A DNA stretch of 64,000 bases. It comes from Pseudoalteromonas tunicata. GTDB taxonomy: Bacteria; Pseudomonadota; Gammaproteobacteria; Enterobacterales; Alteromonadaceae. A program made the translations under genes and the position numbers. This document shows, piece by piece, positions 2,310 through 64,000 of this stretch (position 1 is its first letter; each line of letters begins with the position of its first letter). The notes under the pieces were generated by a model that saw nothing but the letters and a program-made list of their open reading frames with translations, was not told where the DNA came from and ran no database searches. The stretch is from the NCBI RefSeq assembly GCF_002310815.1, contig NZ_CP011033.1, positions 916,476-980,475 of the forward strand, in the 5' to 3' direction.

Positions 2310-2831
2310 ATGAAATCAGCACTTTTAGTTGTAGATGTACAGAATGGAATTTTTGGTTCAAGTAATCCACCGTACCTCTCTGAAGACGTGGTTGGAAATA
2401 TCAATAAACTCGTAAGTTATGCGGACATAAGCAAACTTAAAACGGTTTTCATACAGCATGAAATACCTGGAATGCTTGAAGCTGGAAGTGATTCTTGGCA
2501 ACTATTTTCCGGTTTGACACTTGTAGAGTCTGGTATCAAAATTCGAAAAAAGTCTCCAGATTCGTTTCAAGGTACTAGTCTGGGTGAGTATTTAGAAGGC
2601 AGTGAAGTTGAACATGTCATTATTTGTGGATATTCGACGGATTTCTGTATTGATAGAACAGCATTTAGTGCAGCTAGTCGAGGCTATAAAGTTACCTTAG
2701 TAGATGATGCCCATACAACACATAGCAAACCTCATTTGGATGCATCTTCAATTATTGCTCACCATAGCTTTACGTTATCAAAGCATCCCAGTATATCTTT
2801 AGTATCCACGGAAACATTGACCACGGGCTAA
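2310..2831 (+). CDS. Isochorismatase-family cysteine hydrolase (cassette 2)
   Basis: A 173-residue cytosolic hydrolase of the isochorismatase-like fold. The expected triad is visible: D9 in LLVVDVQNG, K81 in the IRKKSPDSF segment, and C113 in YSTDFCIDRTA. Family members hydrolyse amides or vinyl ethers (nicotinamidase, isochorismatase, biuret-type hydrolases); the substrate here cannot be told. The ATG has a strong AAGGAGG eight bases upstream. It lies 19 bases after the right end of IS copy 1, and its stop overlaps the core of the next attC. Confidence 0.88.
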   Translation: MKSALLVVDVQNGIFGSSNPPYLSEDVVGNINKLVSYADISKLKTVFIQHEIPGMLEAGSDSWQLFSGLTLVESGIKIRKKSPDSFQGTSLGEYLEGSEVEHVIICGYSTDFCIDRTAFSAASRGYKVTLVDDAHTTHSKPHLDASSIIAHHSFTLSKHPSISLVSTETLTTG

Positions 2832-2925
2832 CAAGTGCTTGCATAGGACAAAGTACAGTAGTCACTTTTTGTGCAAAAAGACGCACAAAAGCCGCCAACT
2901 GCACTTTGCCCATGAGGCAGGCGTT
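2826..2925 (+). repeat. attC site of cassette 2
   Basis: It begins GGCTAAC (2826-2832) and ends GGCGTT (2920-2925). Inner arms CAAAGTaCAGT and ACTGcACTTTG can pair. A MITE interrupts the right core directly after GTT. Confidence 0.75.
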
Positions 2926-3071
2926 GAGGATGTAGAATTTCTCTTTTTTAAGAAAAACAGGCTGTTTTCTGGGTTCCAAATGCATTACCTAATGCCTTAA
3001 AAGCGCTTAGGATTGGTTACAGGAACTCGTTTTTTAATTGAATTTGGCTGTAGGAGTTATTCTACAGCCTC
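2926..3071 (+). mobile_element. attC-inserted MITE, subfamily A (146 bp)
   Basis: The left end reads GAGGATGTAGAATT and the right end AT TCTACAGCCTC, the same terminal inverted repeat as the IS1182-like elements. GTT lies on both sides (2923-2925 and 3072-3074). The interior shares CAAATGCATT with the other three MITEs in the window but is otherwise diverged, so it is treated as a separate subfamily. It has no transposase and is presumably moved in trans by an IS1182-family enzyme. Confidence 0.75.
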
Positions 3072-3122
3072 GTTAGCATACTTATTGTAGTTTCGGGCTG
3101 TAATACTATATGGAAATAATAA

Positions 3123-4082
3123 ATGAGATTTTTTAAGTTAAGTTTTCTTGGGGTATTTTTGACTGTGCTGTTAGCTTGTACCGATAGCCCTCAACAAGCT
3201 GATCCAAACTTTATACCTAAAAATACCCACAAAACTTTTTCTCAAAACAATAGCCCTGTTGTAGTTGTAGATGAAGCACACAATAATTTCCTAACAGCAA
3301 GTGGACGATATAGCCCATTTGTGCAGGTTCTTGAAAGCGATGGTTATACCGTTCGGCCGAATAGCAGCCGCTTTTCATTAGCCACACTACATGATGCTGA
3401 TTTATTGGTTATTGCCAATGCGTTAGATAGAAATAGAAAAGACTGGAATCCACCTTTTACTGAAGCATTAAACAATGAAGAAGTTTTAAGTATTAAAAAG
3501 TGGGTCTTGGAAGGTGGAGCGCTTTTATTAATCGCAGACCATGCACCTTTTCCCCGTGTTATTGAAAATTTAGCGCGTGAATTTGGCTTTGAATTTAGTA
3601 ACGGTCATGTCGGTAATGCGATGTTTCGCGCTAGGGACAAGACGCTCGCTGAACATCCCATTACGTCTAAAACCCGGCAGCTAGAGCAAAATTTTTATCC
3701 AGCTACCGCTGCACCTGAAATGCCAGAAATAACTATGCAACCTAATCGTATAGAGCAGGTTAAAACCTTTGGCGGCTCAGCTTTCAAAACTCCGCCTGAG
3801 GCTACTTCACTTTTAAATCTTGGTGAAGGGGCTGTTTCTATAGTTCCTGATGTGCCTTTTCAAGTGAATGCTGATACTGCAAGGGTGCCTGTGCAAGGTT
3901 GGAGTCAAGGTGCTGTACTGGAGGTCGGTAAAGGTCGAATAGCTGTATTTGCTGAGGGTATGATGTTTTCATCTCAACTAGATACTAAAACAGGGAAAAC
4001 ATTTGGATTAGCGTCTAAAGGTGCTGAACAAAATGAAGAGTTTCTATTAAATGTTATGGGTTGGCTTGCAGGTGCCATTTAA
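3123..4082 (+). CDS. DUF4350-type lipoprotein (cassette 3)
   Basis: A 319-residue protein with a lipoprotein signal peptide whose lipobox LLAC puts the acylated cysteine at residue 19. The mature part resembles DUF4350/glutamine-amidotransferase-like alpha/beta proteins: VVVVDEAHNNF, then ADLLVIANAL, then a GGALLLIADHAPFP segment, and a late GKGRIAVFAEG strand followed by NEEFLLNVMGWL. It is probably anchored in the outer membrane or periplasm. Function is unknown. The start ATG follows MITE A by about 50 bases and no strong Shine-Dalgarno sequence is seen. Confidence 0.8.
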   Translation: MRFFKLSFLGVFLTVLLACTDSPQQADPNFIPKNTHKTFSQNNSPVVVVDEAHNNFLTASGRYSPFVQVLESDGYTVRPNSSRFSLATLHDADLLVIANALDRNRKDWNPPFTEALNNEEVLSIKKWVLEGGALLLIADHAPFPRVIENLAREFGFEFSNGHVGNAMFRARDKTLAEHPITSKTRQLEQNFYPATAAPEMPEITMQPNRIEQVKTFGGSAFKTPPEATSLLNLGEGAVSIVPDVPFQVNADTARVPVQGWSQGAVLEVGKGRIAVFAEGMMFSSQLDTKTGKTFGLASKGAEQNEEFLLNVMGWLAGAI

Positions 4083-4101
4083 CAGTGCGAGTCGAAAAGT
4101 A

Positions 4102-4145
4102 TACTAACAAAGCATTGCACCGGACAAGCCGGTGAATGCGGCGTT
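4102..4145 (+). repeat. Short attC site of cassette 3
   Basis: A compact site starting at ACTAAC (4103-4108). Arms GCATTGCACCGG and CCGGTGAATGC form a strong hairpin and the site ends GCGTT (4141-4145). IS1182-like copy 2 is inserted directly after GTT. Confidence 0.75.
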
Positions 4146-6007
4146 GAGGCTGTAGAATTACTTATATTAGGAACTGATTCTACACTTCTTTCTTTGCTCG
4201 ATTTTTAACCTTGAACCCACCGAGTAACTGTGATCTAATAGATATTATTCACCCATGGTAACGTGTTATGGCCAACTATAAGCCTGACTTATCCTGCCAA
4301 AATAAATTCATTCCTATCAATTTTTCAGAGCAAATTCTGCCAGGCACCTTTGAGTATGCCCTTTGTTATATTGTTGAAAATAAACTCGATTTAACGGGGT
4401 TTGATGCATGGTATAACAACGATAAAACAGGTGCGGCTGCGTATCCGCCTTCAGTAATGCTAAAGATAATTTTACTTGGCTATGCACATGGTTTAATCAG
4501 TAGCCGCCGGATTGCTAAGGCGTGTGAGAACAATATCTTGTTCATGAGTGTGTCGGGCGATATTCAGCCGCATTACACATCAATAGCGAGTTTTGTGGCT
4601 AAAATGCACGAACAGATTGAACCACTGTTTACTCAAGTGCTGATGATATGTGATGAAGAAGGCTTAATTGGCCGTAATATGTTTGCTATTGATGGCTGTA
4701 AATTAAAATCAAATGCGAGCAAAGAATGGAGCGGTACGTTCGATGAACTCGGCCGTAAAAAAGCAAAACTAGAACGCGCAAGTAAACGCATCATTGAACG
4801 CCATCAAGCCCAAGATGGCCTAAGTGAAGAGCTGGTCACACAGGACTTAAATCAAAAAGAAAAACTGGATAAAAGCGCAGAGAAAATCACTGATTTTTTA
4901 GCGACACATGAGGAAAAAATAGGCAGTAAAGGGAAGCCTGTTAAAAGTAATATTACCGACCCTGATAGCGCGAAAATGACCACCTCAAAAGGCACAATCC
5001 AAGGTTATAACGGCATAGCAATAAATGACGACAAGCACCAAATACGTTCTTTGGGTAAAGAGGGCAAGCACAAACGTGTGGCTCAGTGGGAGAGCAACAA
5101 ACCTTACAGCCAGCCGTTGAGCAATTAAAACAACAGCTTAATAAACTCAACGCAAACCGAACGTCAAAGGAGCAGGCCATCAAATTCACCGCAGACAGTG
5201 GGTTTAACAGTGAAGTGAATCTTGAATTTATGGCGCAAAGTGGCTTTGATACTTACATTGCCGATAACCAATTTAGAAAACGAAACCCGCTGTTTAAAGA
5301 CAGTGAAACGTATGAAACAGAGCAAGAAAAACGCCGACTAAAAAGGCGTAATGGCAAGCCTCGCTTATTTACCTCAGAGGACTTTCATTATGATGAAACG
5401 ACACAAACCTGCCTCTGCCCTGCAGGCAATGACATGTGGCGAAGCGGCATCAATGTCAACAGCCATCATCAACAATACACCCGATTCTGCGGTTACTTAA
5501 AAGACTGTAAAATTTGCCCACTGCAACAACAATGTATGCGAAAGCCACCGATAAAAACAGGACGGCAAGTGCAGTTTAAGAATGATGAATCCCGCAAAAA
5601 AGTCAGTTACATCGACAAAATGAAAGTAAAAATAGACAGCCCAAAGGGGCGACGGCAGTACAGTAAAAGGCTTGGTTCTATTGAGCCTGTATTCGGGAAT
5701 ATCACCGTCAATAAAGGCATGAATAAACTGACCTTACGGGGTCAAACGAAAGTGAATACCCAGTGGCAACTGTATTGCTTGGTTCATAATATAGAAAAGC
5801 TGCAAAACAGAGTGCATTAAGCAGGGGAACCCCTTTTTACCCTTAAAAACACCTCTAAAACCTCACAGATACCGCAAAAAAAACCACCTAAAACATAGGT
5901 TTAAAATATCCACTCGAAACTGACGAAACGATTGAATCAGAATAGGAACTAAGTTATGGTTTGCTGATTAATAAAAACAAATTTAAAACGAGTAAATCTA
6001 CAGGCTC
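4146..6007 (+). mobile_element. IS1182-family element, copy 2 (defective)
   Basis: It has the same terminal repeats as copy 1 and GTT on both sides (4143-4145 and 6008-6010). It is inserted at the same base of an attC right core. The two copies share very long near-identical tracts in the transposase 3' half but differ elsewhere, so they are related but not recent duplicates throughout. Confidence 0.85.
4268..5820 (+). pseudogene. IS1182-family transposase with internal frameshift
   Basis: Residues 1 to about 258 are read from 4268, but bases 5043-5090 are altered relative to copy 1 and the frame is lost; the remainder resumes in another frame at 5086 and runs to 5820. The C-terminal half keeps the second catalytic aspartate (TADSGFNS) and the glutamate (EPVFGNIT), plus a cysteine cluster (CICPLQQQC). 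Together with copy 1, an intact transposase of about 500 residues can be reconstructed, but neither copy is intact. Confidence 0.85.
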
Positions 6008-48029: not shown

Positions 48030-48448
48030 TTTTTAAAATCGCCGAGATGATAGGAGTTCTGGCGCTTTTAGGCAAATTAATAATGCATTATTTTTAAAAT
48101 ATTTATAATAACATTGAAGCAGTAATCTTATTTATATCTATTTACAATAAAAAAATACGCATTAATAATTTAATTAAAAAAATACCTAATACAACTAAGT
48201 ACTTTACAATTTATGTTTTACCGCGTGCTTAATTAAGTACAAATACAAACCTAACAGCCAATAATTAAGATTATGTTAAATTGTATGTGTTTATCTTTTA
48301 TCATCACATGAGTTAAGATTAATAAAAATTAACTCACCTTATTTTGCTTGTTTATTAAGCGATTAACGGTGAAATAATTTAAGTCCAATACTAGACAGTA
48401 TCGGACTTAAGTTTATAATAACAAAAAATAAGAAAATGATTTTACTTT
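48030..48448. other. Intergenic region upstream of the tyrosine recombinase
   Basis: A 419-base AT-rich interval without ORFs. Its only clear structure is the palindrome at 48377-48412. Confidence 0.45.
48377..48412. repeat. Palindrome beside the tyrosine recombinase gene
   Basis: ATTTAAGTCCAATACT and AGTATCGGACTTAAGT are complementary at 14 of 16 positions around AGAC. Two inverted arms with a short centre look like a core site of a tyrosine recombinase or a regulator site. It is 37 bases before the recombinase gene. Confidence 0.5.
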
Positions 48449-59269: not shown

Positions 59270-60016
59270 TTAAATACCATTTATTTGTTTAAAGCCCTGA
59301 TTTTCTATAATTATTGCTTCTTGAGGTATACCAAAAACAGTCATTAATTCAGTAGCACTAATATCTGTCGCGTGTTGATAGAGCGCATGAAGCCGGCCTT
59401 TATTTAAAAGTATGCAAGCTTGTTTTGAACGTAAAGCAAAATTAATCTCATGATGACTGATTAAAATACAACAAAAACTTTGTATTGTTGTAAGAAATTT
59501 GTTTAACCAAAACCTATGTTTTATATCTAATCCTGTGTATGGTTCATCAAGTAAAATAATATACTTTTTATCAGAACTTAGGTTGATGAATACTCGTGCT
59601 AATTGTGCTCTTTGGACTTCTCCACCTGATAGCTGATTGACCGAGCGCTGCATTAGATTTTCTAAATCGAGTCCTTCGATTATTTCTTTATTAAGTGTTA
59701 GATCTAAGTTTAAAGTCGGATGTGCAATACCGAGCATTTCAAGTACGGTTAATGAAAAGTGCATATGTTGTTTTTGCATTAAATATCGTCGGATATCAAC
59801 CAATTGTTGAAAGTTAAATGGTGTAATTGGAATGTCTAACAAGGTTATTGCTTGATTAGTTGTTGTTGAAATACCACTTACTAAATCCAATAGTGTAGAT
59901 TTTCCAGCACCATTGGGGCCTATAAGATGATGGATTCCCGAATTAAGGTGTAACTGCTGGATTTGAACACTAAAATCATCACTTGTTTTTTTCACTAAAT
60001 TAGTAATTTTAAGCAT
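59270..60016 (-). CDS. btuD: ABC transporter ATPase, BtuD-like (vitamin B12 uptake)
   Basis: A 248-residue ABC ATPase. Walker A is GPNGAGKST, the signature is QLSGGEVQRAQLA, Walker B is YIILLDEPYTGLD, and the switch histidine is in ILISHHE. It overlaps the end of the btuC-like permease gene by one base. Size, order and partner resemble btuD, but iron-siderophore uptake cannot be excluded because no binding-protein gene is adjacent. Confidence 0.85.
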   Translation of the reverse strand: MLKITNLVKKTSDDFSVQIQQLHLNSGIHHLIGPNGAGKSTLLDLVSGISTTTNQAITLLDIPITPFNFQQLVDIRRYLMQKQHMHFSLTVLEMLGIAHPTLNLDLTLNKEIIEGLDLENLMQRSVNQLSGGEVQRAQLARVFINLSSDKKYIILLDEPYTGLDIKHRFWLNKFLTTIQSFCCILISHHEINFALRSKQACILLNKGRLHALYQHATDISATELMTVFGIPQEAIIIENQGFKQINGI

Positions 60017-60999
60017 TACAACCCTTGATCTTTAAAGTGTCGATATAGTACGAATAAGAACAAAGGCCCGCCTATGCTTGTTGTTACTAAACTCAATGGT
60101 AATTGTAAGGGTGTCATTGTACGGGATATCCATTCAACAAAAACCATACACAAAGCGCCGTTGATTATCAGGTTTGGCAGTAGTGTATTATTATTATGGC
60201 CAACTAAAAACCGTGTAGCATGTGGAATTAATAATCCTACAAAAGTTAAAATCCCGCCTAATGTTACCGCTGCTGCTGTTAATATACTTGCTGTAATAAG
60301 CATTTTTCTTCTCAAATCAATGACATTTACACCATAGAGTTGTGCATTTTTTTCACCAAGATATAAAAAGTTAAGCTGCTTCGTTTTTGAAAGTACATAA
60401 GCTATTAGAGGAATTACCAAGGCTGAAATAATAAGTAACTGTTGATATGTTACATGCTCAAAACTTCCTAACATCCATAAACTAAATCCTCTTAATTGAT
60501 CATTATTAGTGTAATAGATTAACCAGCTAGTGATAGCTGATGTGATGGTAGTCAGGCAAATTCCGGTTAATATTAATGATGCACTTGAATGGCTACCTAT
60601 TCTTTTGGCTAAAGTAAATACAATATAAATAGCAATACATGCACCCACAATACCGAAGCCAACAATGGAGAACACATCATACCTTATTGCGTAATATGAA
60701 TATATCGCAGCGCCTGAAACTATAAACAAAGAACAAAAGCCACTCACGCCTAATAGGCTAGGTTCGGCTAATGAGTTTGATAGCATCACTTGGTACAAAT
60801 GCCCTGCAATAGACAAAGATAAACCTACGACAATAGCCGTAATTATTTTTGGTAATCTTAGTTCTAAAGCGACAATTTTATCTATATGAGATAAATTAAA
60901 GATATTCAAACTTTCACTTTGCATGCCGCCGTAAGTTAATGATATCAATGAAGCTATAGCTAAAAATAAGATATTGATTATAACTTTCCTACTAACCAA
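60016..60999 (-). CDS. btuC: FecCD-type permease, BtuC-like
   Basis: A 327-residue inner-membrane permease with about ten helices. LRLPKIITAIVVGLSLSIAGHLYQ and NSLAEPSLLGVSG correspond closely to the BtuC segments LRLPRTLAV and NPLAEPGLLGVS; later LGGILTFVGLLIPHATR matches the conserved cytoplasmic loop. It starts with TTG, with GGAG seven bases upstream. No cobalamin riboswitch was found in the short leader, which runs into the Ter-like region. Confidence 0.87.
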   Translation of the reverse strand: MVSRKVIINILFLAIASLISLTYGGMQSESLNIFNLSHIDKIVALELRLPKIITAIVVGLSLSIAGHLYQVMLSNSLAEPSLLGVSGFCSLFIVSGAAIYSYYAIRYDVFSIVGFGIVGACIAIYIVFTLAKRIGSHSSASLILTGICLTTITSAITSWLIYYTNNDQLRGFSLWMLGSFEHVTYQQLLIISALVIPLIAYVLSKTKQLNFLYLGEKNAQLYGVNVIDLRRKMLITASILTAAAVTLGGILTFVGLLIPHATRFLVGHNNNTLLPNLIINGALCMVFVEWISRTMTPLQLPLSLVTTSIGGPLFLFVLYRHFKDQGL

Positions 61000-61063: not shown

Positions 61064-61078
61064 AAGAACACATCATAC
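61064..61078 (-). promoter_or_regulatory. Ter-like site 1
   Basis: On the minus strand GTATGATGTGTTCTT, preceded by A and followed by T. It is an exact inverted copy of the 15-mer at 61174-61188 and resembles the E. coli Ter core (GTATGTTGTAACTA) in GTATG and TGT. Confidence 0.6.
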
Positions 61079-61173
61079 TTACCAATATATTAAATTAATC
61101 TGATGAACAGAGTTAAATTTAAAAATTTAATTTACAAACAAAAGGCTTAAGTGTGATAATTAAGCTTCTTTTT

Positions 61174-61188
61174 GTATGATGTGTTCTT
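61174..61188 (+). promoter_or_regulatory. Ter-like site 2, abutting the tus start codon
   Basis: GTATGATGTGTTCTT directly precedes the ATG at 61189. In E. coli TerB also lies at the tus promoter and lets Tus repress its own gene. No Shine-Dalgarno sequence is present because the site occupies its place. Confidence 0.62.
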
Positions 61189-62064
61189 ATGAGTATTAAA
61201 TTATCTATTCGTAGTCAGTTTGATTTTATTCTTGAATTAACAAACTATTTGATTGAAGAAATTCAGCAACTTTCTATTAGCCATGCAAGTTATTTTCAAT
61301 TACCTCCGGTTTTAGCTCAAGATGAAAATGAATCTCGAAACTACATTCCGGTTATGGTATTTTCTGACGAGAATGCTATACCTTTTATACAAAAAGCTTA
61401 TTTAGATGTGTTTAAAAATCACGATATCAGCGGCCGTGTCCTAACACGTCATCCTGGGATTTTAGCGGTAAATACTGATAATCCCGATGCATTGATAGAA
61501 CGCATTAATCAAATTAATAAAGCCAAAGTTGATTTTAAAAATTTAATATTAGGTTTAGGTAATAACGACGCCCGCTTTAATGCTGTGCATGAAGCAATAC
61601 CTAATGTCATTACTTTAGCTGTCTATCGACAAATTCACTATGAGAAAAACTCCCCTTATTCCATCCGTTTTACATGGATGCATAAACATTCTGTAAAAAC
61701 TTTCTCCAAACAACAAGCGCTTGAACTATTAAATAATTCAGAACATTTTGGTTGTATTAATAAAATAAACGAAGATGCATGGCGGGCTTTAGTTAATCAA
61801 GAACAACTTAGGGTTGCTGCTTTACCTGACAAACAACTACTTCGAATTAGAAGACCGACTCCTGTAAGTCCGCAGGTAAATATCCGCTTTAGTGCGACTA
61901 ATCGTTATCATGTTAGTGCCGCATTGCCTTTTATTGTAATCAATCCAGACCCTGAACTTAAACTCGGCACCTTACCCGATTACAACAAACCTTTACAGCA
62001 CCCTAGAAAACTTGAAAAAGATTTTTTAGTAGAAAGGCTATACTTGGAGACTGTAAATCGCTAA
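61189..62064 (+). CDS. tus: Tus-family replication terminus binding protein
   Basis: A 291-residue protein similar over its whole length to E. coli Tus (309 residues). Corresponding segments: RVLTRHPGILAVNTDNPDALIERINQINK, EAIPNVITLAVYRQI, SIRFTWMHKHSVKTF, then RVAALPDKQLLRIRRPTPVSPQ (interdomain DNA-contact strands) and HVSAALPFIVINPDPELKLGTLPDYN. Tus binds Ter DNA and blocks forks from one side. Here it lies next to the replication initiator gene and faces two Ter-like 15-mers. Confidence 0.85.
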   Translation: MSIKLSIRSQFDFILELTNYLIEEIQQLSISHASYFQLPPVLAQDENESRNYIPVMVFSDENAIPFIQKAYLDVFKNHDISGRVLTRHPGILAVNTDNPDALIERINQINKAKVDFKNLILGLGNNDARFNAVHEAIPNVITLAVYRQIHYEKNSPYSIRFTWMHKHSVKTFSKQQALELLNNSEHFGCINKINEDAWRALVNQEQLRVAALPDKQLLRIRRPTPVSPQVNIRFSATNRYHVSAALPFIVINPDPELKLGTLPDYNKPLQHPRKLEKDFLVERLYLETVNR

Positions 62065-62102
62065 TAAAAAAGGGCTTAATTATGTTAAATTAAGCCCTTT
62101 CT
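62065..62102. terminator. Bidirectional terminator between tus and the initiator gene
   Basis: AAAAAAGGGCTTAAT, tatgtta, AATTAAGCCCTTTCT. Confidence 0.9.
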
Positions 62103-62123
62103 ATATTTTGTTGGATTATAAGT

Positions 62124-63338
62124 TTACTTTGATACTATTTCTTCGAGTTGATCACCATCAATCGTTAAAGCTTCTTCAACAATTCGTTTACCACTTTGAA
62201 TTTCTAATCTTTTATTTTGTTTATTCAAAGTAAGAATTTCTTCACAAAATTGTTCTGATGGGTGCATCTCATAAGTGTAATCAACAATATTTCCAGTTTT
62301 ATCATCTTTCACATTTACAATCGTATAATCTGAAATAACGGATTTATTAATTAAATCTTTCATTGTAGTCGTCATATCACGTCGTAATGCTTTTAATTTA
62401 TTTTCAGTAATGACATCATTAGCATAAATAGAACCGTATTTTTCCATAATTGATAACAATCTAAAATGGTGCGTTTTACCAGGTGCAGCATAACGCCATA
62501 AATGATAAAGCCTTAACATCATCCAGCGACTTAAACCACGCTTTAGTTCTTGAGCACGATTAAAGTAGTAACCTTTATAATCTAAATTATCAATCATGTT
62601 ATGGACAAATGCATTTAGGCATGCAACACACTTTACATTTCCACCCTGCCCTTTTTTTCCACTAAAATGTAATGAAGATAAAAAGTTCATATTTGACTCA
62701 TAAAATGAGTCATCAACATTGGTATTCTTTGTATCTATAGCTGTGTATTTAAAAGAAAGTTTTGATCCTTGTAACGCTTCAAGTGACTCTTTTATTTGCG
62801 GAAAAGGCATTGATTGACCAACACCTTTTAATTCTTGCGCTAATTCATTCATCGAAAAAACAACGGCATATTGAATACCAGACTTAAAATTGATTTTCAC
62901 AATTTTACCTTTTGATGCAAGTCTGATTAGAGCACGTTCTACTTTTTCTTCTCTATCTGAAGGCCAAACAAGATATTCCCTTTCTTCGCCTTCTTCACGA
63001 GAACTTACTACCGCAGGTGTGATCTTAATTTCTCCGTTGTATTGAATTCCATCAATTTTTTCAGAAATTCTTCGCGTCACTATTGTTCTTTTTGGGGCTT
63101 CTTCAACCGGCAACTTTTTGTGACCAGAACGAACAAAGCGACCCCATAAATCATAATGATTAAAGGTATTTGAATAAGCTCTTAATGCATGACTTGAGTT
63201 TTCAACAGGAACTCGAACATCTTTGTTATCGGTAAAAAGGGCTAAACTCTCATTATCATTAGCACTTTCGACTCCATGTATTTGGCCTCTCAGTGTATCT
63301 GGTAGGTTTTCAACAGAAATCTTTACCTTGCTCGACAT
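62124..63338 (-). CDS. Plasmid-type replication initiator (Rep_3/RepB-like winged-helix protein)
   Basis: A 404-residue protein with tandem winged-helix features of iteron-binding initiators: EERALIRLASKGKIVKINF-type helix-wing (REEKVERALIRLASKG), FSMNELAQELKGVG, and the C-terminal WMMLRLYHLWRYAAPGKTHHFRLLSIMEKYG recognition region. It has no ATPase motif. Iterons lie directly upstream (63408-63547), as expected for an autoregulated initiator. It resembles the initiator found beside the origin of Pseudoalteromonas second chromosomes, from memory of that genus. Confidence 0.82.
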   Translation of the reverse strand: MSSKVKISVENLPDTLRGQIHGVESANDNESLALFTDNKDVRVPVENSSHALRAYSNTFNHYDLWGRFVRSGHKKLPVEEAPKRTIVTRRISEKIDGIQYNGEIKITPAVVSSREEGEEREYLVWPSDREEKVERALIRLASKGKIVKINFKSGIQYAVVFSMNELAQELKGVGQSMPFPQIKESLEALQGSKLSFKYTAIDTKNTNVDDSFYESNMNFLSSLHFSGKKGQGGNVKCVACLNAFVHNMIDNLDYKGYYFNRAQELKRGLSRWMMLRLYHLWRYAAPGKTHHFRLLSIMEKYGSIYANDVITENKLKALRRDMTTTMKDLINKSVISDYTIVNVKDDKTGNIVDYTYEMHPSEQFCEEILTLNKQNKRLEIQSGKRIVEEALTIDGDQLEEIVSK

Positions 63339-63407
63339 TGTTTTTTCCGTATAGTTTTAGCTGACGTTGTATAACAACACATAATTCAAAAAAAGTTAAT
63401 TACTTAT

Positions 63408-63464
63408 GTTAGTAAAAAATTGATCCGTCATCAAATATCTCTAGCAGATCATTTTTTTACTAAC
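63408..63464. repeat. Inverted iteron pair at the initiator promoter
   Basis: GTTAGTAAAAAATTGATC (63408-63425) and GATCATTTTTTTACTAAC (63447-63464) are inverted copies of the iteron separated by 21 bases. Inverted iterons next to a Rep gene usually serve its autorepression. Confidence 0.7.
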
Positions 63465-63493
63465 GTATATTTTCTATGTAGTAAAAAAACAGC

Positions 63494-63550
63494 TTTTGAG
63501 ATCATATTTTAACTAACCAAGCGTTTTGAGATCACCTTTTTACTAACTAA
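63494..63550 (+). repeat. Direct iterons
   Basis: GATCATATTTTAACTAAC (63500-63517) and GATCACCTTTTTACTAAC (63530-63547) are direct repeats exactly 30 bases apart, both preceded by TTTTGA. They are likely initiator binding sites for replication. Confidence 0.72.
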
Positions 63551-63675
63551 ATCGCTCTTTTTGCCAAAAAAAATGTAATTTAAAGGTTTTAATCGGTACA
63601 AATCTCTAAAAAGCGCTTCTTACTTAGTATAAAAGCGATCCAAAAATCTATTTTTAACTCCAGGCAACCTGCATT

Positions 63676-63684
63676 TGTGTATAA
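63676..63684 (-). promoter_or_regulatory. DnaA box
   Basis: TTATACACA on the minus strand matches the TTATNCACA consensus. A weaker TTATCAACA is at 63858-63866. Confidence 0.6.
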
Positions 63685-63700
63685 GTACATAAATGCTTAG

Positions 63701-63739
63701 TAAAGATCTGATCTAAAGTAAGTTAAGATCAGATCTTTA
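63701..63739. repeat. Origin palindrome with 14-bp arms
   Basis: TAAAGATCTGATCT (63701-63714) and AGATCAGATCTTTA (63726-63739) are perfectly complementary around an 11-base centre and contain four GATC methylation sites. Confidence 0.8.
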
Positions 63740-64000
63740 GTAACTTAAATACATATAAAACGGCAATAACGAATCTTAATGTTACATCTGAGTTAGTAAT
63801 GGCATGATCTAACCGTATTTTTCTGTACATAACTATGTTAATTAACTGTGCTTATTCTGTTGATAAAAATACAAGTAGATATAATCGTGATCTGCAAGTA
63901 CTAATAAATCAGATCTTAACCAAGTAAAATAGTGATCTGTTATTTTTTAAAAACGTCATATATATTAATAAGTTAAGTTACATTTTACTCTCTCTATACT

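Follow-up and report, generated by a model that had tools for sequence, protein, structure and literature searches.

Where do the replication forks of a Pseudoalteromonas chromid stop, and does the stopping place decide the direction in which the chromid is copied? Xie et al. (2021; PMC7858055) measured unidirectional replication of chromids in this genus and described a bidirectional minority, while the accessible text leaves the stop sites unknown. A one-sided slope was found again for the P. translucida chromid (PMC13342612, accessible part), and the initial annotation of this locus, which cited a report of unidirectional replication of chromosome II of P. haloplanktis, agrees with measurements made by others. 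In this study, we analysed a window, that is, the whole stretch of 64,000 nucleotides at C2:916476-980475 of Pseudoalteromonas tunicata, which runs to the last base of the 980,475-base second contig. The window contains tus, the gene of the replication terminator protein Tus, beside the presumed chromid origin ori2, and two inverted 15-mers ahead of tus look like Ter sites of a divergent, Pseudoalteromonas-specific type. We hold with good confidence that these are Ter sites of a given polarity arranged in fork traps. With more reserve, we lean towards the trap as the cause of one-way chromid replication. The central features are the following:

61189..62064, plus strand: tus, replication terminator protein of 291 amino acids
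61064..61078, minus strand: putative Ter site A, an exact 15-mer; a (-) site precedes the tus match by 115-151 bases in 33 of 35 loci
61174..61188, plus strand: putative Ter site B, an exact 15-mer abutting the tus start codon and kept in 33 of 35 loci
60668..60682, minus strand: putative Ter site A2, in the orientation of A, a copy with a changed end base inside a FecCD-type permease gene
62124..63338, minus strand: repA-like replication initiator gene, 404 amino acids, convergent with tus and conserved in the genus
63405..63924, no strand: repeats of the GATC...TTTTTACTAAC type upstream of repA, presumed ori2 iteron region

The gene at 61189-62064 encodes Tus. It had been called Tus-like over its full length, and profile, sequence and predicted fold all bear this out. 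The Pfam family PF05472 (Ter) matched residues 7-286 at 5e-71, the sequence matched the E. coli Tus-DNA structure 1ecr at 1.4e-21, and an AlphaFold2 model with a mean predicted local distance difference test (pLDDT) of 85 matched 1ecr with an E value of 1.1e-23 and a template modelling (TM) score of 0.77. The NCBIfam equivalog models matched under their cut-offs (258 of 323 bits and 95 of 178 bits). When nine sequences were aligned, the columns of E. coli F140 and H144 (F130 and H134 in the window) were invariant; among the other pocket columns, G149 is Asn, I79 lies at a gap, and L150 is Val in the window Tus and Leu in seven relatives. We take F140, H144, I79, G149 and L150 to be the cytosine-pocket residues of E. 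coli Tus. The gene was present in 107 of 108 Pseudoalteromonas genomes.

The 15-mer GTATGATGTGTTCTT occurs exactly at A and at B, inverted, with 95 bases between the copies, at the positions and in the orientation first annotated; B also has the strand and side of the Ter sequence at E. coli tus. The third copy, A2, had been overlooked. With up to three mismatches, there were eight matches in the window, compared with a mean of 2.5 and a maximum of 7 in 100 shuffles. The 189 distinct sites that we collected gave the motif AAGTAWGATGTGTTCYT, in which the 13-base core was set by the search itself and the flanks were free. The sequence in front of E. coli tus is AAGTATGTTGT. The first half of the motif has 10 of 11 bases in common with it and the second half departs from it; overall, 10 of 17 bases are equal. 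The core AAGTATGNTGT is common to the motif and the site at E. coli tus, and AAGTATG-TGT is shared with E. coli TerB. The shared bases include the lock-pair G of GC(6), which was present in 239 of 247 sites outside the arrays described below (first two bases left free). The names TerB, GC(6) and dif, and the dif pattern, are partly confirmed by the cited papers.

Because the motif is short, one might suspect chance repeats or the sites of an unrelated protein. The pattern GTAWGATGTGTTCY matched 107 of 108 genomes of the genus, the drafts being counted from the search table alone, and its reversed control gave one hit over all 108. The sole genome without a match (G055) has five sites by a shorter pattern. 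Outside the genus, in an order-wide sample of 295 genomes, GTAHGATGTGTTCY matched 10 of 293 genomes once each, and the reversed control gave eight hits. The 33 complete or near-complete genomes of the genus held 174 strict sites, compared with three for the control. These controls, the likeness to the sequence at E. coli tus and the location at tus make an origin by chance or from an unrelated protein scarcely credible.

Two sets of relatives were compared: 35 loci from a related-locus search, and 71 genomes of the genus (31 complete or nearly so, 40 drafts), so that with our own genome the tus region was read in 72 of the 107 tus-bearing genomes. The sets overlap (L030, L033 and L034 are G028, G063 and G097), and more overlap is likely. 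The inverted (-)/(+) pair was found ahead of tus at similar distances in 33 of the 35 loci, a result for the search of related chromids that the annotation had proposed, and 31 of these 33 have a further (-) copy within 3 kb. Among the 71 genomes, 67 have a (-) site upstream of tus and the remaining four form one clade; a (+) site lay in the fetched stretch in 49. This genus-wide comparison supports the earlier interpretation as to Ter identity, trap layout and the link to one-way replication.

Could the pair be a mere operator through which tus regulates itself? Site B lies in the tus leader and is therefore probably an autorepression site, and the pair brackets a promoter-like site:

61131..61160, plus strand: promoter-like site between the two putative Ter sites, TTTACA-18-GATAAT with TG ahead of the second hexamer, a consensus match only
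62069..62100, plus strand: terminator-like hairpin between the convergent tus and repA, a consensus match only, one found with 1.3 expected

The statement that the 15-mers flank the tus promoter thus stands as far as a promoter-like site does lie between them, but this site is a weak one, promoter-like matches in the region being fewer than in its shuffles. The motif also surrounds dif1 in 25 of 33 genomes and dif2 in the clade that lacks it at tus, always in trap orientation, and it reaches up to 14 kb from tus; we consider an operator role alone very improbable.

The polarity of the sites was read from the main chromosome, defined as the replicon without tus. There, 57 of the 174 strict sites were found, and 57 of 57 are in trap orientation around dif1, with the GTATG end facing dif1, (-) sites on the left and (+) sites on the right. 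Sites flank dif1 on both sides in 25 of the 33 genomes (23-144 kb apart) and on one side in five. Where a replicon had several dif-like hits, the one with the fewest mismatches was kept and the others were dropped (G003, G005, G016, G018, G037, G046, G061, G096, G099 and G102); some kept hits have two mismatches, including both of our own genome. In G005 and G041, the sign of the GC (guanine-cytosine) skew flips at dif1 or the (+) site; in our own genome it flips at dif1. In layout, the sites would let forks into the terminus and not out of it. Forks must reach dif1 from both arms unstopped, and therefore the GTATG end should be the non-permissive face, as it is at E. coli Ter. The dif1 layout thereby fixes the polarity, which the initial annotation had left open. 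Its argument that one site would stop each fork whichever face is non-permissive fails, since with the opposite polarity the 95 bases separating the sites would never be copied. Because a Ter pair surrounds dif1 in the main chromosome, the chromid-encoded Tus probably serves both chromosomes. Our own main chromosome has an exact copy of the 15-mer at G000:C1:1924779-1924793 (L094), 15.8 kb from the dif-like sequence. A search for its (+) partner at 1905-2045 kb with up to three mismatches gave nothing convincing, nor did one for the missing partner in G101 (1730-1770 kb, up to three mismatches). The two genes that hold the expected (+) partner in G005 are separated by a gap of only 50 bases in our genome. 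The genome G003 is a single contig without tus and repA, yet it keeps a Ter pair around dif1; its chromid is either lost or absent from the assembly.

On the chromid, the annotated order of tus, initiator gene and iterons was found as described. No Pfam or NCBIfam family matched the product of 62124-63338. Of 33 complete or near-complete genomes of the genus, 32 have the repA-like gene, with 84-87% identity in the 31 others, and the initiator of two Pseudoalteromonas chromids was shown experimentally (PMC7858055, accessible part). The record ends at 64000, and ori2 may run over the contig junction. The left side of the locus is marked by two further features:

48261..48281, plus strand: dif2-like sequence (C2:964736-964756), about 13 kb from the Ter pair, two mismatches to the pattern and unsure
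60016..60999, minus strand: FecCD-type permease gene holding A2, third-position skew -0.044

In 30 genomes with a Ter cluster at tus, all chromid sites fall within -14.3 kb to +1 kb of tus, and every chromid has two or more (-) sites. The replicons that carry Ter at tus are 0.66-1.35 Mb long. We call these chromids unidirectional-type by their Ter cluster at tus and not by a measured direction, and the dif2-like sequence lies 12-17 kb from tus in 17 of them, including our own, and 21-24 kb in four.

We propose that Tus bound at Ter would stop a fork meeting the GTATG end and let the opposite fork pass. The leftward fork from ori2 would then pass B and stop at A, with A2 as back-up, 2-3 kb from the origin. 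The rightward fork would copy almost the whole 980 kb circle, pass A2 and A, and stop at B. With the leftward fork stopped at A and the rightward fork at B, termination would fall within about 100 bp beside the origin, and replication would be effectively unidirectional. Site B would also repress tus, and the same Tus would act in trans on the Ter sites flanking dif1 in the main chromosome. The unidirectional replication initially predicted from the sites agrees with the trap layout, with the skew and with published measurements, whereas the trap as its cause is a step that we infer.

The GC skew of our own chromid, a check proposed in the initial annotation, is one-sided and agrees with unidirectional replication: all 19 sampled stretches are positive, as are five of the seven window blocks, and the last two blocks, next to ori2, are negative. 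It is also positive in 10 of 10 stretches of the G041 chromid and 8 of 10 of that of G005. The negative raw skew of the last 12 kb was considered as a sign of a leftward fork reaching dif2. We rejected this because the third positions of the minus-strand genes between dif2 and the Ter pair are lagging-like (-0.128 in 5 genes vs. -0.138 in 103 genes elsewhere), and gene direction is the likelier cause. Nearer the origin, the third-position skew is -0.183 for tus, +0.172 for repA, and -0.28 and -0.32 for parA and its neighbour, in each case opposite in sign to same-strand genes elsewhere; among plus-strand genes tus ranks under the 5th percentile, and among minus-strand genes repA ranks over the 95th. 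The permease gene is slightly negative, i.e. on the lagging side. In our genome, the third-position skew thus switches between the permease gene and tus, that is, at the Ter pair. To the left of the pair, aroG and ppsA have negative third-position skew in 32 of 32 and 31 of 31 cases in the 35-locus set and in 22 of 28 and 10 of 10 in the other set, while the corresponding counts for parA are 32 of 32 and 17 of 18. Just beyond the window end, L064:161-5779 (C2) contains a gene for a ParA-type ATPase and an adjacent gene, taken as parB from its position only, both with leftward-type third-position skew; the next gene, an SNF2 helicase (2585-5779), is without it.

Real Ter sites could also be present while RepA, by loading the replisome one way at ori2, sets the direction, in which case the trap would end the round and prevent over-replication. 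This explanation differs from ours in the causal step only, and the confidence given to the one does not exclude that given to the other. In its favour, the genus-wide skew of tus and repA has no clear leftward-replicated segment. Four genomes bear on this question. G044, G063, G097 and G100 have no Ter site at tus and form one clade in the RepA and Tus trees (support 100/99 and 100/100). The complete chromids of G044 and G100 are 1.62 and 1.60 Mb long and amount to 50.6 and 50.7% of the main chromosome, which fits the bidirectional strains in the accessible part of PMC7858055, whose chromids are 50.6-50.8% of the main chromosome. Their GC skew is two-armed, each with 5 of 5 stretches positive on one arm and 5 of 5 negative on the other, one of them at only -0.001. 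Ter pairs at 825064(-)/926045(+) in G044 (101 kb apart) and 737390(-)/849851(+) in G100 (112 kb apart) bracket the dif2-like hit and sit across the circle from ori2; of these four sites, three are full 15-position matches and one differs by a single change. In this clade, the pair thus sits around dif2 of a chromid that looks copied in two arms. The permease and ABC transporter genes left of tus, slightly negative in the window, have positive third-position skew in four of four clade loci each.

The clade RepA is 86-87% identical to that of the window and the tus-repA order is the same, yet both arms are replicated; what differs is the position of Ter. In addition, in all 30 genomes with Ter at tus, two or more sites are turned against the leftward fork, which is sensible only if such forks arrive, and tus, repA, parA and its neighbour in our genome have leftward-type third-position skew. 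We therefore regard one-way loading by RepA as rather unlikely to set the direction. Within the clade, G044 also has a solitary further site (C2:304188) that would let the normal fork pass. On the main chromosomes near dif1, no site with 0-1 mismatches was found in G044 (2275-2355 kb) or G100 (1510-1570 kb), these stretches giving just three-mismatch hits and one with two. Transfer of the main-chromosome terminus to the two-armed chromid was considered because one neighbour gene is shared, and it was rejected: there were 4 and 5 reciprocal best hits, compared with 40 and 44 for the main chromosomes.

Several points weigh against the trap as the cause of one-way replication, or against parts of the layout. 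Binding of Tus and fork arrest at the putative Ter sites are things we infer, and unidirectionality could come from the origin itself. Among the chromids with Ter at tus, only three were sampled for skew. Over 33 loci of the first set of relatives and 29 of the second, the pooled third-position skew of tus and repA is near zero with mixed signs, so it does not prove for the genus as a whole that the skew switches at the Ter pair; the skew of one gene is computed from few bases and can be mimicked by the codon preference of that gene. As parA and its neighbour look leftward-replicated, forks may start near C2:2.5 kb and not at the iterons. Outside the two-armed clade, 18 of 67 genomes have no (+) site in the fetched stretch, where the contig ends in some. 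In 9 of the 30 unidirectional-type chromids, the dif2-like sequence is 98-410 kb from tus (98-154 kb in eight, 410 kb in one). On the main chromosomes, three of 33 genomes have no Ter at all, and our own has a single one.

A different arrangement was found in nine of the 71 genomes, which form one clade: 9-18 Ter-like sites lie between tus and repA, mostly 110-215 bases apart and, in G007, in 182-base units (L045, G007:C2:740500-750500; L056, L060, L092, L158, L159, L160, L163 and L164). All array sites but one are (-). With the first two bases left free, the lock G is present in none of the 123 (-) array sites, compared with the high proportion elsewhere given above, and none of the nine genomes has the (+) site at the tus start. 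The only G-type site within an array region, in G051, points the opposite way. As guesses, the arrays could titrate Tus or act as weak brakes. If lock-less arrays bind Tus without stopping forks, they would be a new kind of Tus site, and if the position of the Ter pair switches the replication mode, a pair beside ori2 would give a unidirectional chromid and its move to dif2 in one clade a bidirectional one. These two proposals, together with control of termination on both chromosomes by one chromid Tus, we regard as evenly balanced between holding and failing.

Second, divergent tus copies were seen on other contigs (G007:C3, G013:C3, G037:C3, G020:C30, G030:C85, G038:C10, G063:C49, G070:C6, G074:C49, G088:C188 and G103:C19), and G013:C3 also carries a second repA with 53% identity. 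The Pseudoalteromonas Ter motif was absent at the divergent copies of G005:C3 and G103:C19. On the 97 kb third contig of G005 (L142, G005:C3:14000-22000), the divergent tus has an exact 15-base inverted pair of TGCATGATGGTCTAG upstream, at -267 and -81 relative to the family match; the (-)/(+) layout is that of the main tus, and the sequence is another. This is perhaps the Ter pair of the divergent Tus.

Studies have come near to such sites. In the accessible text of PMC7858055, the E. coli consensus was used to look for Ter close to where replication of one chromid was expected to end, without success; the second half of our motif differs from that of E. coli, which may explain this result. 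The 2023 review PMC10331603 draws the chromid ter site with a question mark, and PMC8347550 regards a ter site within the tus promoter as a tempting assumption for this case, both as far as accessible. No published Pseudoalteromonas Ter sequences were found in the literature searched, as far as its texts were accessible, with subscription papers and preprints outside the search. Unidirectional replication and this kind of trap are known; the new part is the type of Ter, its use on two chromosomes and its move with the replication mode. The motif makes the cause of unidirectionality, and of bidirectionality in one clade, directly testable.

Compared with E. coli Tus-Ter (type II, PMC8707476, accessible part), the Tus fold, the F140/H144 positions and the core with the GC(6) G are the same. 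E. coli tus likewise has a Ter site in its leader in the orientation of site B, whereas the 3' half of Ter is GTTCYT in Pseudoalteromonas and AACTAA in E. coli. Unlike in E. coli, the chromid trap lies 2-3 kb from a plasmid-type origin, and one chromid Tus would serve two chromosomes. Plasmid R1 relies on the Tus of its host, unlike the chromid, whose trap locus includes its own tus. At terRL/terRR of R1, one fork is stopped near the origin and the other after a circuit, so that replication is unidirectional (PMC10331603, PMC8347550, accessible parts); the chromid skew agrees with such replication, which may likewise depend on Tus-Ter. The type I traps of Edwardsiella and Dickeya resemble that of the chromid in having the innermost Ter next to tus; those traps are in the main-chromosome terminus, whereas the Pseudoalteromonas main-chromosome trap is on another replicon than tus (PMC8707476, PMC10331603, accessible parts). 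The chromids of Xie et al. belong to the same genus and have the same tus-repA-ori2 cluster; main-chromosome Ter sites, unreported in the accessible Results of PMC7858055, were found here around dif1. The motif also suggests that the main chromosome acquired a fork trap of plasmid origin resident in the same cell, much like the domestication in E. coli discussed in the accessible part of PMC10331603.

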